45,525 bases of DNA, from NCBI RefSeq assembly GCF_025655475.1, contig NZ_JAHTIK010000001.1:1677734-1723258 (forward strand). Reading direction: 5' to 3'. This DNA comes from Kitasatospora sp. DSM 101779. Its GTDB lineage: Bacteria; Actinomycetota; Actinomycetes; Streptomycetales; Streptomycetaceae. Positions 2,816-12,798 of the stretch are shown piece after piece. The notes under the pieces are model-generated. The model searched no databases and was not told the origin of the DNA. It worked only from the letters and a program-made list of their open reading frames with translations. The position numbers and the translations under genes are program-made. Position 1 is the first letter of the stretch, and each line of letters begins with the position of its first letter.

Positions 2816-4198
2816 TCAGGAGCGGGCCTCGGCGACGGCCTCGGCCAGGAGCTGCGCGGCCCGGGCGAGCCGGCGCTCCGGCAGTGCGGCGTAACCGAGG
2901 ACGAGGGCGGGCGGGCCGGGGGCGGTGAGGCGGGTCGGGGCGACCGGTTCGACCCGGACGCCGCGGGTGGCGGCGGCCTCGGCCACGCGCCGTTCGGCGC
3001 AGCCCGGCGGCAGGTCGAGGTACAGGTGCAGGCCGGCGGCCACGCCCCGGACGGCGGCGTCCGGCAGGTGCCGGGCGAGGGCCCCGGCCAGGGCGTCGCG
3101 GCGGGCGCGGTAGCGGGCGCGGACCGCCCGCAGGTGCCGGTCGTGGCCGCCGTCGGCGAGCAGGCGGGCGAAGGCCAGCTGGTCGAGGGCGGAGCAGCCC
3201 AGGTCGCTGTACTGCTTGTCGGTGCGGAACTCCTCGACCATCGGCTCCGGCAGCACGGCCCAGCCCAGGCGCAGTCCCGGTGCCAGCGACTTGCTGAGCG
3301 AGCCGAGGTGGACGACCAGGTCGGGGGCGAGCCCCTGCAGGCAGCCGACGGGCTCGCGGTCGTAGCGGAACTCGGCGTCGTAGTCGTCCTCGACGACCAC
3401 GCCGCCGGCGCGGCGGGCCCAGGCGATCAGGGTGGCCCGGCGTTCGGGGGCGAGCACCACGCCGGTCGGGTACTGGTGGGCCGGGGTGACGAGGACGGCG
3501 CGGACGCCTGTCCGGGCGAGCGCGTCGACGTCCAGGCCGTGCGCGTCGACGGGGACGCCGACCGGTTCGAGGCAGTGGGCGCGCAGCAGGCCGAAGGTGC
3601 CCGGCGAGCCCGGGTCCTCGACGGCGATGGCGCGGTGGCCGTGGCGGACGAGCTGACGGGCCGCCAGGGCGAGCCCCTGGGCGACGCCGCCGACCACGGT
3701 GAGGCGTCCGGGGTCGGCCACGGCGGCCCGTACCCGGCCGAGGTGGGCGGCGAGTTCGGTGCGCAGCACGGGGTGGCCGGCGGGGTCGCCGTAGCCGAGG
3801 GCGGTGTGTTCGGCGGAGGCGAGGGCGCGGCGCAGCGCGGCCTGCCAGGCTGCCCGGGGGAAGAGCGAGAGGTCGGGGGTGCCGGGCTTCAGGTCGTACC
3901 GGACGGCGGGGGCGGCCGGGCCTGCTGGCGGTGCGGGCGGCGGCGGGGCGATGCCGTCGGCGACCCGGGTGCCCGCCCCGGGCCTGCTCACCAGGTAGCC
4001 CTCGGCGACGAGTTGGGCGTAGGCCTCGACCACGGTGCCGCGGGCCACTCCGAGGTCGCGGGCGAGGGTGCGGGTGGCGGGCAGTCGGCCGCCGGCGGGC
4101 GGGCGGCCCTGGCGAACGGCCTCGCGCAGGGCTGCGGTGAGCCGGGCGGTGAGGCCGCTGCCCTGGGACGGGTCGAGCAGCAGCAGGAGTTCGGTCAC
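2816..4198 (-). CDS. MocR-type regulator (GntR winged helix fused to aminotransferase fold)
   Basis: A 460-residue PLP-dependent transcription factor of the MocR/PdxR group. Residues 1-80 are a GntR winged helix (GGRLPATRTLARDLGVARGTV). Residues about 100-460 are a fold-type I aminotransferase domain with HQYPTG, the EDDYDAEFRYD motif, and PLP Lys303 in SLSKSLAPG. Such proteins sense an amino acid, amine or vitamin B6 rather than catalyse. The start is GTG at 4198 with GGAGGTG a few bases upstream; a nearby ATG is out of frame. It is divergent from the EamA exporter at 4312, and the 113-bp gap holds paired repeats (4243-4275) that look like its operator. The likely role is effector-dependent control of the exporter. 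Confidence 0.92.
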   Translation of the reverse strand: MTELLLLLDPSQGSGLTARLTAALREAVRQGRPPAGGRLPATRTLARDLGVARGTVVEAYAQLVAEGYLVSRPGAGTRVADGIAPPPPAPPAGPAAPAVRYDLKPGTPDLSLFPRAAWQAALRRALASAEHTALGYGDPAGHPVLRTELAAHLGRVRAAVADPGRLTVVGGVAQGLALAARQLVRHGHRAIAVEDPGSPGTFGLLRAHCLEPVGVPVDAHGLDVDALARTGVRAVLVTPAHQYPTGVVLAPERRATLIAWARRAGGVVVEDDYDAEFRYDREPVGCLQGLAPDLVVHLGSLSKSLAPGLRLGWAVLPEPMVEEFRTDKQYSDLGCSALDQLAFARLLADGGHDRHLRAVRARYRARRDALAGALARHLPDAAVRGVAAGLHLYLDLPPGCAERRVAEAAATRGVRVEPVAPTRLTAPGPPALVLGYAALPERRLARAAQLLAEAVAEARS

Positions 4199-11669: not shown

Positions 11670-11703
11670 GGGGCCCGGGAGCGGTATCCAGCTCCCGGGC
11701 CCC
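11670..11703. terminator. Perfect 13-bp bidirectional stem-loop
   Basis: GGGGCCCGGGAGC (11670-11682) and its exact reverse complement (11691-11703) flank an eight-base loop. It separates the lipoprotein gene on the plus strand from the tRNA-like locus on the minus strand, so it can end transcription from both sides. Confidence 0.75.
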
Positions 11704-11756
11704 TGCGGTGCCACCCAATTGCGCGCGCCGGCACGTTTAAGGGTTGCGGATCAATC

Positions 11757-11834
11757 TCAGAGCCTCGTGTTCTGCCTTTGAACTACCGTGCCAAGGGGAG
11801 AGGCACAGGCGGGACTTGAACCCGCATCCGAGGC
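11757..11834 (-). tRNA. Circularly permuted tRNA-like gene B, Gln(CTG)-like anticodon
   Basis: Read 5'-3' on the minus strand, a tRNA 3' half comes first: position 38 (11834), anticodon-stem strand CCTCG (11833-11829), three-base variable loop GAT, T-arm GCGGG-TTCAAGT-CCCGC (11825-11809), acceptor strand CTGTGCC (11808-11802) and discriminator T (11801). After an 8-nt linker comes the 5' half: acceptor GGCACGG (11792-11786), TA, D-arm GTTC-AAAGGCA-GAAC (11783-11769), A26, anticodon stem CGAGG (11767-11763) and loop start CTCTGA with anticodon CTG (11760-11758). Acceptor strands pair 7/7 (one G-T), anticodon strands 5/5, T-stem 5/5 and D-stem 4/4. U8, G10, GG in the D-loop, U33 and TTC in the T-loop are all present. 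CCA is not encoded. Flanking sequence just outside the open anticodon loop is also complementary: GGGTGCGGA (11849-11841) with TCCGC-a-ACCC (11750-11741). The alternative is a Y RNA-type tRNA mimic; whether it is ligated or charged is unknown. Confidence 0.72.
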
Positions 11835-11900
11835 TTTCCGTCCGCACCCGTTCGATCCGGCGCTCGGCGGCGAATGCTGAGCCTTGAGCGAGAGTCTGAG

Positions 11901-11982
11901 TTTCAGGGGGCTGCCTCTGCCGTTTGGGCCACCCCGGCGCGGTGGTGCCGGGGGGAGGACTCGAACCTCCACTGTCACCCCT
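11901..11982 (-). tRNA. Circularly permuted tRNA-like gene A, Phe(GAA)-like anticodon, CCA encoded
   Basis: On the minus strand the 3' half comes first: position 38 A (11982), anticodon-stem strand GGGGT (11981-11977), variable loop GACAGT, T-arm GGAGG-TTCGAGT-CCTCC (11970-11954), acceptor CCCCGGC (11953-11947), discriminator A (11946) and CCA (11945-11943). Only 4 nt (CCGC) separate it from the 5' half: acceptor GCCGGGG (11938-11932), TG, D-arm GCC with loop CAAACGGCAGA and GGC (11929-11913), A26, anticodon stem GCCCC (11911-11907) and loop start CTGAAA with anticodon GAA (11904-11902). Acceptor pairs 7/7, T-stem 5/5, anticodon stem 5/5 (one G-T), D-stem 3/3. Joining A37 to A38 would give the loop CTGAAAA, which is the standard tRNA-Phe loop. 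It lies 81 nt downstream of the stop of the 244-residue gene on the same strand and 66 nt upstream of unit B. The Phe identity is only an anticodon reading. Confidence 0.75.
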
Positions 11983-12063
11983 GTGTCAGCTTCACTTTCA
12001 GTGTCAGCTTCTGCGCTGTCGCGCACCCCTCCGCTCAAGGAGGGGGATCGTGGGTCCGGCCTG
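11983..12063 (-). other. Structured leader of the permuted tRNA-like locus
   Basis: These 81 nt lie between the stop of the 244-residue gene and unit A. In minus-strand order they hold a perfect hairpin CCCCTCC-TTGAGC-GGAGGGG (12045-12026), a hairpin TGCGC-GACA-GCGCA (12025-12012), an 11-nt direct repeat GAAGCTGACAC (12011-12001 and 11993-11983) and a small hairpin CACT-GAA-AGTG (12003-11993) joining the repeats. The stretch CCTTGAGCG (12040-12032), which includes the first hairpin loop, is exactly complementary to CGCTCAAGG (11890-11882), ten bases beyond the open end of unit A's 5' half. That pairing, or a loop kiss of six bases, would bring the two tRNA halves together. The first hairpin could also end the upstream mRNA, though no U-tract follows. 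Confidence 0.6.
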
Positions 12064-12798
12064 CTACTGGCCGAACAGGTAACCGAAGACGGCGTCGCCG
12101 ACCCGCTTGTCGACGACCTCCGTCGCGTTGGCCTCCTCGCGGGCGAACTGCACCGCCTGCTGCAGCTTCTCGACCCGCTGGACGAGCTCGTTGACCCGCC
12201 GGGCGGGCAGCGCACCGGAGAACTTGACGGTCGTCCAGTACCCGACGGCGATGTCCTCGTAGTACACCTCGACCTGGGCCGGGTGCTTCTCGGTGGCCTC
12301 CGCCTTCACATGGTTGCGGGGCACCTTCTTCGTCCGGATGGTGCGCACCGGCTCGGTCTTCCACGCGTCGGTGGAGGCGTCCGGCGTCCAGGACTCGGAG
12401 GCGTCCAGCACCGGCAGCTTGCGGACGAAGGTGTAGAGATCGGTGAGCTGCTTCTCCAGGAAGAGCAGGTAGGTGACCGGCACGTCGGTCAGCAGCGGCC
12501 GGCCGTCGACCACGACGTCCGCGCGGGCGGCGCAGTTGGCGTGGTCCTTGGTGGCGGTCACGTCGAACAGCCGGGTGAGCGAGGCGGCGGTGTCGCGCAG
12601 GATGTCCTCGGCGCGCACCTGCACGCGGGTGGACTCCGGCGGGAGCTGCTCGCCCTCCTCGTCCTTGGGCTGGTACGTACGGGAGATCCCGGCGAGCAGG
12701 GCGGGCTTCTGCAGGCCGTGGTGGGCCGCCGTCAGCTCCTGGAACGACTTGGACTTGACGCCCTTTTCGACTGCGATGATCTGGTTGAGTTTCGCCAC
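12064..12798 (-). CDS. Conserved-looking protein of unknown function beside permuted tRNA-like genes
   Basis: A 244-residue soluble protein with no signal peptide or membrane segment. I cannot assign a family function. It begins AKLNQIIAVEKGVKSKSFQEL, has a basic patch TIRTKKVPRNHVKAEATEKH (about 153-172), aromatic-rich VYYEDIAVGYWTTVKFSG, and a C-terminal helix NELVQRVEKLQQAVQFAREE that could form a coiled coil, ending FGYLFGQ. It is not Ku and has no TROVE (Ro60), RtcB or nuclease motif that I can see. The GTG at 12798 lies seven bases after TAGCCT (12811-12806), so translation is probably leaderless. It is directly upstream, on the same strand, of the two permuted tRNA-like units, with no other gene between, so an RNA-binding or RNA-processing role is a reasonable inference. 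Confidence 0.8.
   Translation of the reverse strand: MAKLNQIIAVEKGVKSKSFQELTAAHHGLQKPALLAGISRTYQPKDEEGEQLPPESTRVQVRAEDILRDTAASLTRLFDVTATKDHANCAARADVVVDGRPLLTDVPVTYLLFLEKQLTDLYTFVRKLPVLDASESWTPDASTDAWKTEPVRTIRTKKVPRNHVKAEATEKHPAQVEVYYEDIAVGYWTTVKFSGALPARRVNELVQRVEKLQQAVQFAREEANATEVVDKRVGDAVFGYLFGQ

Follow-up and report, generated by a model that had tools for sequence, protein, structure and literature searches.

A stretch of DNA beside the gene for a DUF7873 protein in Kitasatospora sp. DSM 101779 is predicted to encode a structured non-coding RNA of about 380 nt, which probably joins DUF7873 in a ribonucleoprotein (RNP) whose tRNA-mimic heads would serve as bait. At the level of sequence, comparison of bacterial and phage loci demonstrates a predicted fold with compensatory changes, near-constant pairing of the RNA with DUF7873 and modular loss of one head (head A), as well as near-invariant bases at the tRNA elbow together with an anticodon triplet and U33 that are not conserved. 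The RNP reading is drawn from the way in which the RNA stays with a single protein despite changes of host and gene order, and from the combination of a fixed elbow with a free decoding end.

The window, meaning the whole 45,525-nt stretch of DNA that was analysed, contains two permuted tRNA-like units (units A and B) on the minus strand at 11984-11756, and these were the sole matches of a strict descriptor applied to both strands. The preliminary description of this DNA had placed a permuted pair at this site and on this strand, and both units are also recovered by an unconstrained fold. The linkers that it reported, four nucleotides after an encoded CCA in unit A and eight after the discriminator in unit B, agree with the coordinates, and its count of seven of seven acceptor pairs and five of five anticodon pairs in each unit is borne out with one G-U pair in the acceptor stem of B and one, in the register used there, in the anticodon stem of A. 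The extent that it gave takes in both units but ends too early, since the outer helix reaches approximately 11725 and is followed by a terminator-like hairpin at 11703-11670. ARAGORN found neither an ordinary tRNA nor a tmRNA in the window, and nothing in the window was reported at Rfam thresholds. The features are as follows.

12064..12798, minus strand: DUF7873 (PF25283) gene, 244 aa, presumed protein partner (Pfam, 401.7 bits)
12026..12045, minus strand: 5' hairpin 1 (MFE fold)
12012..12025, minus strand: 5' hairpin 2 (MFE fold; 73.4% of cells paired in alignment A3)
11985..12011, minus strand: 5' strand of the domain A long stem, with AAGCTGA-type motif (MFE fold; A3 helices 2-4, 74-90% paired)
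11947..11983, minus strand: tRNA 3' half of unit A including the variable loop (descriptor, fold probabilities, T-arm and acceptor covariation), with anticodon 3' strand 11983-11978, T-arm 11970-11954 and acceptor 3' strand 11953-11947 (descriptor and fold)
11939..11946, minus strand: linker of unit A, consisting of discriminator A, CCA and 4 nt (descriptor; CCA partly conserved)
11904..11938, minus strand: tRNA 5' half of unit A (descriptor, covariation, fold probabilities), with acceptor 5' strand 11938-11932, D-arm 11929-11913 and anticodon 5' strand 11909-11904 (descriptor and fold)
11873..11900, minus strand: 3' strand of the domain A long stem, with CTCAGACT..GCTC..CTCAGC motif (MFE fold; motif search of viral contigs)
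11841..11871, minus strand: 5' strand of the domain B outer stem, with ATCGACCG-type signature (MFE fold; A1 helix 1)
11802..11834, minus strand: tRNA 3' half of unit B (descriptor, covariation, fold probabilities), with anticodon 3' strand 11834-11829, T-arm 11825-11809 and acceptor 3' strand 11808-11802
11793..11801, minus strand: linker of unit B, consisting of discriminator and 8 nt, without CCA (descriptor)
11762..11792, minus strand: tRNA 5' half of unit B (descriptor, covariation, fold probabilities), with acceptor 5' strand 11792-11786, D-arm 11783-11769 and anticodon 5' strand 11767-11762
11725..11750, minus strand: 3' strand of the domain B outer stem, with CTTAAACG signature (MFE fold; signature counts)
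11670..11703, minus strand: G+C-rich end hairpin, probable terminator (MFE fold)

Units A and B are parts of one conserved element of about 380 nt located directly 3' of the DUF7873 gene. The unconstrained fold of 12063-11664 consists of two 5' hairpins, a stem bearing unit A, a stem bearing unit B and a final hairpin, so that two permuted tRNA-like folds would cap two long stems within one RNA. Pair probabilities in the acceptor, T and anticodon stems of both units are 0.87-1.00, and the 400-nt fold has a z-score of -5.05 relative to dinucleotide shuffles. The end hairpin (11670..11703) is without a T-run and was not called by a consensus terminator scan. The preliminary description had reported complete cloverleaves, which holds, and a GAA triplet in unit A, which needs a correction: the triplet depends on a choice of register, since the supposed U33 and G34 are paired in the unconstrained fold (CAGGGG with CCCCUG). 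The domain A stem (12011-11985 and 11900-11876) has a 6-nt rhythm on both strands (AAGCTG ACACTG AAAGTG AAGCTG), which is also visible in cyanophage and Vibrio phage copies.

Conservation of the fold was examined in three alignments. Alignment A1 comprises 44 unit B sequences aligned by sequence only, in which pairing is 99.7% in the acceptor stem, 100% in the T-stem, 95.5% in the D-stem and 90.4% in the outer stem (helix 1), the last of these with double changes at all five pairs. Double changes in A1 number 255, compared with 83 in shuffles, and sliding the partners by one to three columns lowers pairing from 88.2% to 36.5-45.3%. Alignment A3 covers unit A and its long stem in 31 of 37 non-redundant sequences (L006, L059, L083, L104, L116 and L122 were dropped), with a structure predicted from its own sequences that does not include the unit A anticodon stem; pairing is 99.5% in the acceptor, 100% in the T and D stems, 74-90% in the long-stem helices and 73.4% in the 5' hairpin. 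In both units the acceptor helix is 99.5-100% paired with double changes at seven of seven pairs. For alignment A4, 63 strong unit B matches were aligned to R1, a covariance model built from 44 unit B sequences chosen out of 51 non-redundant ones by dropping seven with long linkers (L029, L081, L086, L100, L120, L122 and L123). Four of five measures of covariation in A4 exceed all 500 shuffles, although the fifth, the count of pairs with a double change, was reached by 44 of the 500.

Changes in the paired strands of relatives that lack compensation had been named beforehand as evidence that would count against the units, and the acceptor, T and D arms withstand this check through the covariation in A1, A3 and A4. 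A covariance model of the permuted order, which had likewise been proposed, was run on genomes of the family. The anticodon stem of unit B is weak in the alignments, with 51.8% (A1) and 64.9% (A4) of the cells paired. Shifts in the place and length of this helix account for its poor pairing in the alignments. The earlier view that the anticodon arms are unusually complete is therefore not sustained, as no other helix of unit B has such poor support and the corresponding stem of the Rfam YrlA family is comparable.

Bases at the elbow are nearly fixed, while the decoding end is free to vary. Among 63 model-aligned unit B sequences, U8, G10, A14, G18/19, A21, G53, T54, T55, C56, A58 and C61 are each present in 61-63, a conservation that is partly built in because the detector demanded T at position 8 and TTC.A. 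Position 33 in the same sequences is C in 33, T in 16, A in three, G in one and a gap in 10; positions 34 and 36 are mixed and position 35 is T in 59 of 63. Many different triplets occur across the bacterial loci, and a decodable anticodon loop with a conserved U33 was not found. When units were sorted by D-stem length, which files the single Vibrio units under A, linkers of bacterial loci contain NCCA in 27 of 63 A units and none of 82 B units, and the motif is commoner in phages (16 of 27 A units and 15 of 24 B units), suggesting that an encoded CCA may matter there. Based on the fixed elbow, the variable positions 33, 34 and 36, and the replacement of unit A by a stem-loop in some loci, the units are taken to be tRNA mimics rather than decoding tRNAs. 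Two observations run against mimicry: CCA is frequent in phage linkers, which a pure mimic would not need, and ARAGORN draws a rival tRNA in the ordinary order over unit A in six of 32 bacterial loci.

A relaxed detector, which sought a unit within 600 nt of the DUF7873 stop codon, was applied to 82 bacterial loci (80 from named genomes, one Nonomuraea locus and the window). It found at least one unit in all 82 and two units in 63. One of the 19 single-unit loci (L029) has a unit A that the detector overlooked, and in the remaining 18 of 82 unit A is replaced by a short stem-loop of 28-63 nt, some of them weak; L044 served as the whole-fold example of such a locus. Among 36 phage loci, which include some near-duplicates and exclude L118 and L119 (partial genes) and L088-L094 (genome searches), 22 have two units, 10 have one and four have none. 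When those regions were dinucleotide-shuffled, the same detector gave one match in 1.41 Mb; it gave eight in 1.41 Mb of flanks and one on the antisense strand of the 600-nt regions. Five of the flank and antisense matches score at least 30: two, both in L104, belong to Ro60-linked RNAs, one is a copy that has been displaced (L085), one sits on neighbouring tRNA-Arg genes (L116) and one, in L087, is unexplained. Hit rates of both the detector and R1 lean towards the DUF7873-linked family since both were built from it.

DUF7873 is present in 75 of 121 genomes of the window's family (Streptomycetaceae), and all 75 have an R1 match on the strand of the gene, at a median of 202 nt (range -21 to 294 nt) past its end. 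Some match to R1 at E <= 0.01, if a weak one, occurs in 119 of the 121 genomes. The weakest of the 75 linked matches score 56.4 to 65 bits and the top match in a genome without DUF7873, which is beside Ro60 (G337), scores 56.1 bits, so that position and not score alone separates the DUF7873-linked RNAs. Among 296 genomes drawn more widely from the phylum, six have DUF7873, all of them from the window's family. A DUF7873 profile found 238 viral loci, of which 80 were retained, and R1 matched in 77 of these 80; some of their contigs are shared with the earlier viral set and some were used in R1. The misses are L314, where the contig stops 128 nt past the gene, and L259 and L260, which belong to the phage of L101/L102. 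In the reverse direction, a search with the RNA motif alone (CTCAGACT..GCTC..CTCAGC) returned 11 viral contigs, each of which carries DUF7873, 10 of them in the fetched stretch and the 11th being the contig of L264, where the gene is present.

The arrangement of RNA and gene is not constant. The RNA is upstream of DUF7873 in L301 (1784-1918) and on the opposite strand, 1.2 kb past the gene, in L305 (3952-4086, minus), and no second DUF7873 was found in the fetched stretches of either, which argues that the link goes beyond a shared 3' UTR. In L085 an annotated ORF and a tRNA gene come between DUF7873 and the displaced RNA, and in G311 it is kept beside a DUF7873 match covering residues 82-145 only. 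DUF7873 without a recognisable RNA nearby was seen in L101/L102 (one phage type in two records) and in the Lak-B5 megaphage (L124), and the presence of the RNA in L087 is ambiguous; these loci and G311 count against the RNP reading.

The surroundings of the pair vary. The largest similarity-linked group among 78 bacterial upstream flanks has 33 members, and the GH46 neighbour of the window was found in four of 80 loci within the 3 kb fetched. DUF7873 occurs on four plasmid-labelled records and in 82 phage records, the hosts of which include Arthrobacter, Gordonia, Rhodococcus, Pseudanabaena, Microcoleus, Vibrio, Klebsiella, Serratia, Rhizobium and Prevotella. Thirteen of the 82 records were examined for the RNA, which is present in phages of Arthrobacter, Gordonia, Rhodococcus, Pseudanabaena, Vibrio, Klebsiella and Rhizobium; among the 13, none was found in Prevotella phage Lak-B5 and the Microcoleus phage (L087) is the ambiguous case. 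Phages of Vibrio (L084, L126) and of Rhizobium (L120, L121) have a single unit, which matches B. ARAGORN calls a tRNA within the fetched stretch in 18 of 30 phage loci, a raw count that becomes 16 when calls overlapping the RNA itself (L099, L123) are removed, and these other tRNA genes make a role in tRNA protection or take-over a direct thing to test. In Klebsiella phage vB_KpM_FBKp24 an annotated suppressor tRNA (TTA; L123 3518-3597) overlaps an R1 match at 3551-3669, and the annotation is probably a misread piece of the DUF7873-linked RNA.

DUF7873 itself is a large family, with 7354 relatives at E <= 0.001 among 7998 candidates scored. An AlphaFold2 model (pLDDT 91, pTM 0.75) consists of long helices and a long beta hairpin, and the protein has conserved basic residues. 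The model had no Foldseek match at E <= 0.001 in the PDB or among viral models, and its VIA-align scores were all below 7, with no known RNA-binding fold matched. The protein is not basic overall (predicted pI 6.5, charge -1), which runs against the RNP reading. The predicted structure as such neither supports nor excludes RNA binding.

Several other explanations of the locus must be weighed. The preliminary description had offered a bacterial permuted tRNA pair as one of two alternatives, and maturation of the units into molecules resembling tRNA-Phe and tRNA-Gln would fit the complete permuted cloverleaves, the CCA encoded in unit A, the loop readable as C-U-GAA-A-C in the window and the NCCA of phage linkers. 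This is very improbable, however, since the triplet and U33 differ among close relatives, the fold places G34 of unit A in a base pair, bacterial linkers have NCCA in fewer than half of the A units and in no B unit, unit A is absent from 18 of 82 loci, and the source genome already has an ordinary tRNA-Phe(GAA) and two tRNA-Gln(CTG). Its other alternative, a Y RNA-like tRNA-mimic locus, is supported. Neither the near-constant association with DUF7873 nor the occurrence in phages had been noticed there. Adjacent identical tRNA genes (L172, L173, L177, L179) also give a permuted pattern of low score (25-43 bits), in which the 3' half of one gene is combined with the 5' half of the next, a caution for scans of this kind and possibly a birth route for permuted modules. 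That the locus is a relic of such tandem genes is the least probable explanation of all, as the window is without an ordinary tRNA and decay is disfavoured both by the fixed outer stems and by the strong compensation between paired strands, provided that the covariation is more than a trace of recent tRNA ancestry. A cis-acting 3' element of the DUF7873 mRNA, functioning in stability, processing or autoregulation and having no role in trans, would account for the same-strand position immediately behind DUF7873 in all 75 family genomes that have it, the hairpin at the end, and the failure of a scan limited to the sigma-70 consensus to find a separate promoter-like site. Such an element is improbable given the other placements of the RNA: it precedes DUF7873 in L301 and is encoded on the other strand in L305, where neither stretch has a further copy of the gene, and in L085 it is displaced behind an ORF and a tRNA gene.

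The most serious competitor, although still unlikely, holds that the RNA is a Y RNA of the YrlA type for Ro60 (TROVE) and that DUF7873 is an accessory of the Ro60 system. The order of the YrlA module, read from the Rfam alignment, is permuted in the same way, as the preliminary description had stated, and a permissive search with the YrlA model (RF02553) gave 35.3 bits (E 4e-6) for unit B and 18.2 bits for unit A, against a threshold of 69. None of the 121 family genomes exceeds this gathering threshold and the Ro60-linked RNAs also fall below it, so the model may be too strict for the family. Across the 121 genomes TROVE and DUF7873 occur together in 51, DUF7873 alone in 24, TROVE alone in 19 and neither in 27, a positive association (p 0.005, uncorrected for descent). 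The two genes are also neighbours, at a distance of 1.7 kb in G329, 1.1 kb in viral contig G418, 1.9 kb in G414 and 5.4 kb in phage RHph_Y65, and the association and these neighbours make a functional tie to Ro60 biology possible. Ro60 in G418 lies upstream of DUF7873 (L220), and within the 6.5 kb fetched there was no separate YrlA-like RNA, the DUF7873-linked RNA being the sole permuted-tRNA RNA. Against this reading, a TROVE match was missing among the carriers of DUF7873 from 24 of 75 genomes of the family and from 23 of 28 phage records, although viral records may be fragments. In addition, the Ro60 (TROVE/vWA) gene of the source genome is a separate locus 2.2 Mb from that in the window, with two YrlA-like RNAs of its own in front of it (L171 1569-1692 and 1823-1934, C1 at about 3.926 Mb; 40.5 and 30.6 bits versus 69). 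The detector found 15 distinct Ro60-linked units in 10 of 16 Ro60 loci scanned, and their outer stems differ from those of 106 DUF7873-linked unit B RNAs: the motif GG(1-3 nt)[ACT]CTTC is in 13 of 15 versus none of 106 and GTGCGCAG in 11 of 15 versus none, whereas an ATCGA-type motif is in 100 of 106 and a CTTAAACG-type motif in 91 of 106 versus none of 15 for either, counts that describe two classes rather than test a prior claim since the motifs were picked by eye from the same sequences.

The reading preferred here, an RNP of DUF7873 and an RNA with mimic heads, would require that the RNA is transcribed and stable and that DUF7873 binds it, probably at the long stems with their fixed motifs. 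The heads would then attract tRNA-directed enzymes that recognise the elbow, either as bait or in competition. Hughes et al. (2020, PMC7790460) describe a tRNA-like domain in YrlA and the tethering of Ro60 to PNPase by Y RNA, and suggest that the domain might competitively inhibit an anticodon nuclease; the idea of an anticodon-nuclease competitor is carried over from there by analogy and may apply to the DUF7873-linked RNA. Within the RNP reading, a decoy or competitor role is tentatively favoured, and a function like that of Y RNA, tethering or gating a different enzyme, is only slightly less favoured. It is conceivable, in an equally tentative way as for the decoy, that DUF7873 and its double-headed RNA constitute a Ro60-independent counterpart of Y RNA systems, an RNP mobile between Streptomyces-like chromosomes and phages of numerous hosts, which phages would retain next to their tRNA arrays and which would blunt tRNA-attacking enzymes. 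DUF7873, a large family of unknown function, thereby gains an RNA partner that is almost always present and a biochemistry that can be tested; bacterial mimicry of tRNAs in permuted order would extend beyond the Ro60-linked Y RNAs, and one RNA could possess two permuted heads, one of them dispensable.

In the portions covered of the literature on DUF7873, on permuted tRNAs in bacteria, actinobacteria and phages, and on Streptomyces Y RNAs, a selection to which the main Y RNA papers do not belong, the DUF7873-linked RNA is not described. Its closest likeness is to YrlA (RF02553), with which it shares occurrence in bacteria and phages, an adjacent protein gene, and a permuted tRNA-like module that continues through its 'anticodon' stem into another stem. 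Unlike YrlA, it often has two modules, its partner is DUF7873 rather than Ro60 and its outer-stem signature is another one; it falls under the RF02553 threshold, as do the Ro60-linked RNAs examined. The permuted tRNA genes of algae and archaea (Soma 2014, PMC3978253) likewise have the 3' half first and a short intervening stretch at the acceptor, but the DUF7873-linked units differ from them in their bacterial host, in having no conserved anticodon or U33, and in showing no consistent bulge-helix-bulge junction in the folds examined. Inspection by eye of two folds shows 4 bp of helix flanked by bulges of 2 and 7 nt at the outer junction of domain B in the window; no such junction was seen in L044. 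Two-piece (permuted) tmRNA contains a tRNA-like domain in permuted order around the acceptor. The DUF7873-linked units resemble it in this permuted domain and differ in being whole cloverleaves that include the D-arm, and the RNA that carries them is read as a second family of permuted-tRNA RNAs.
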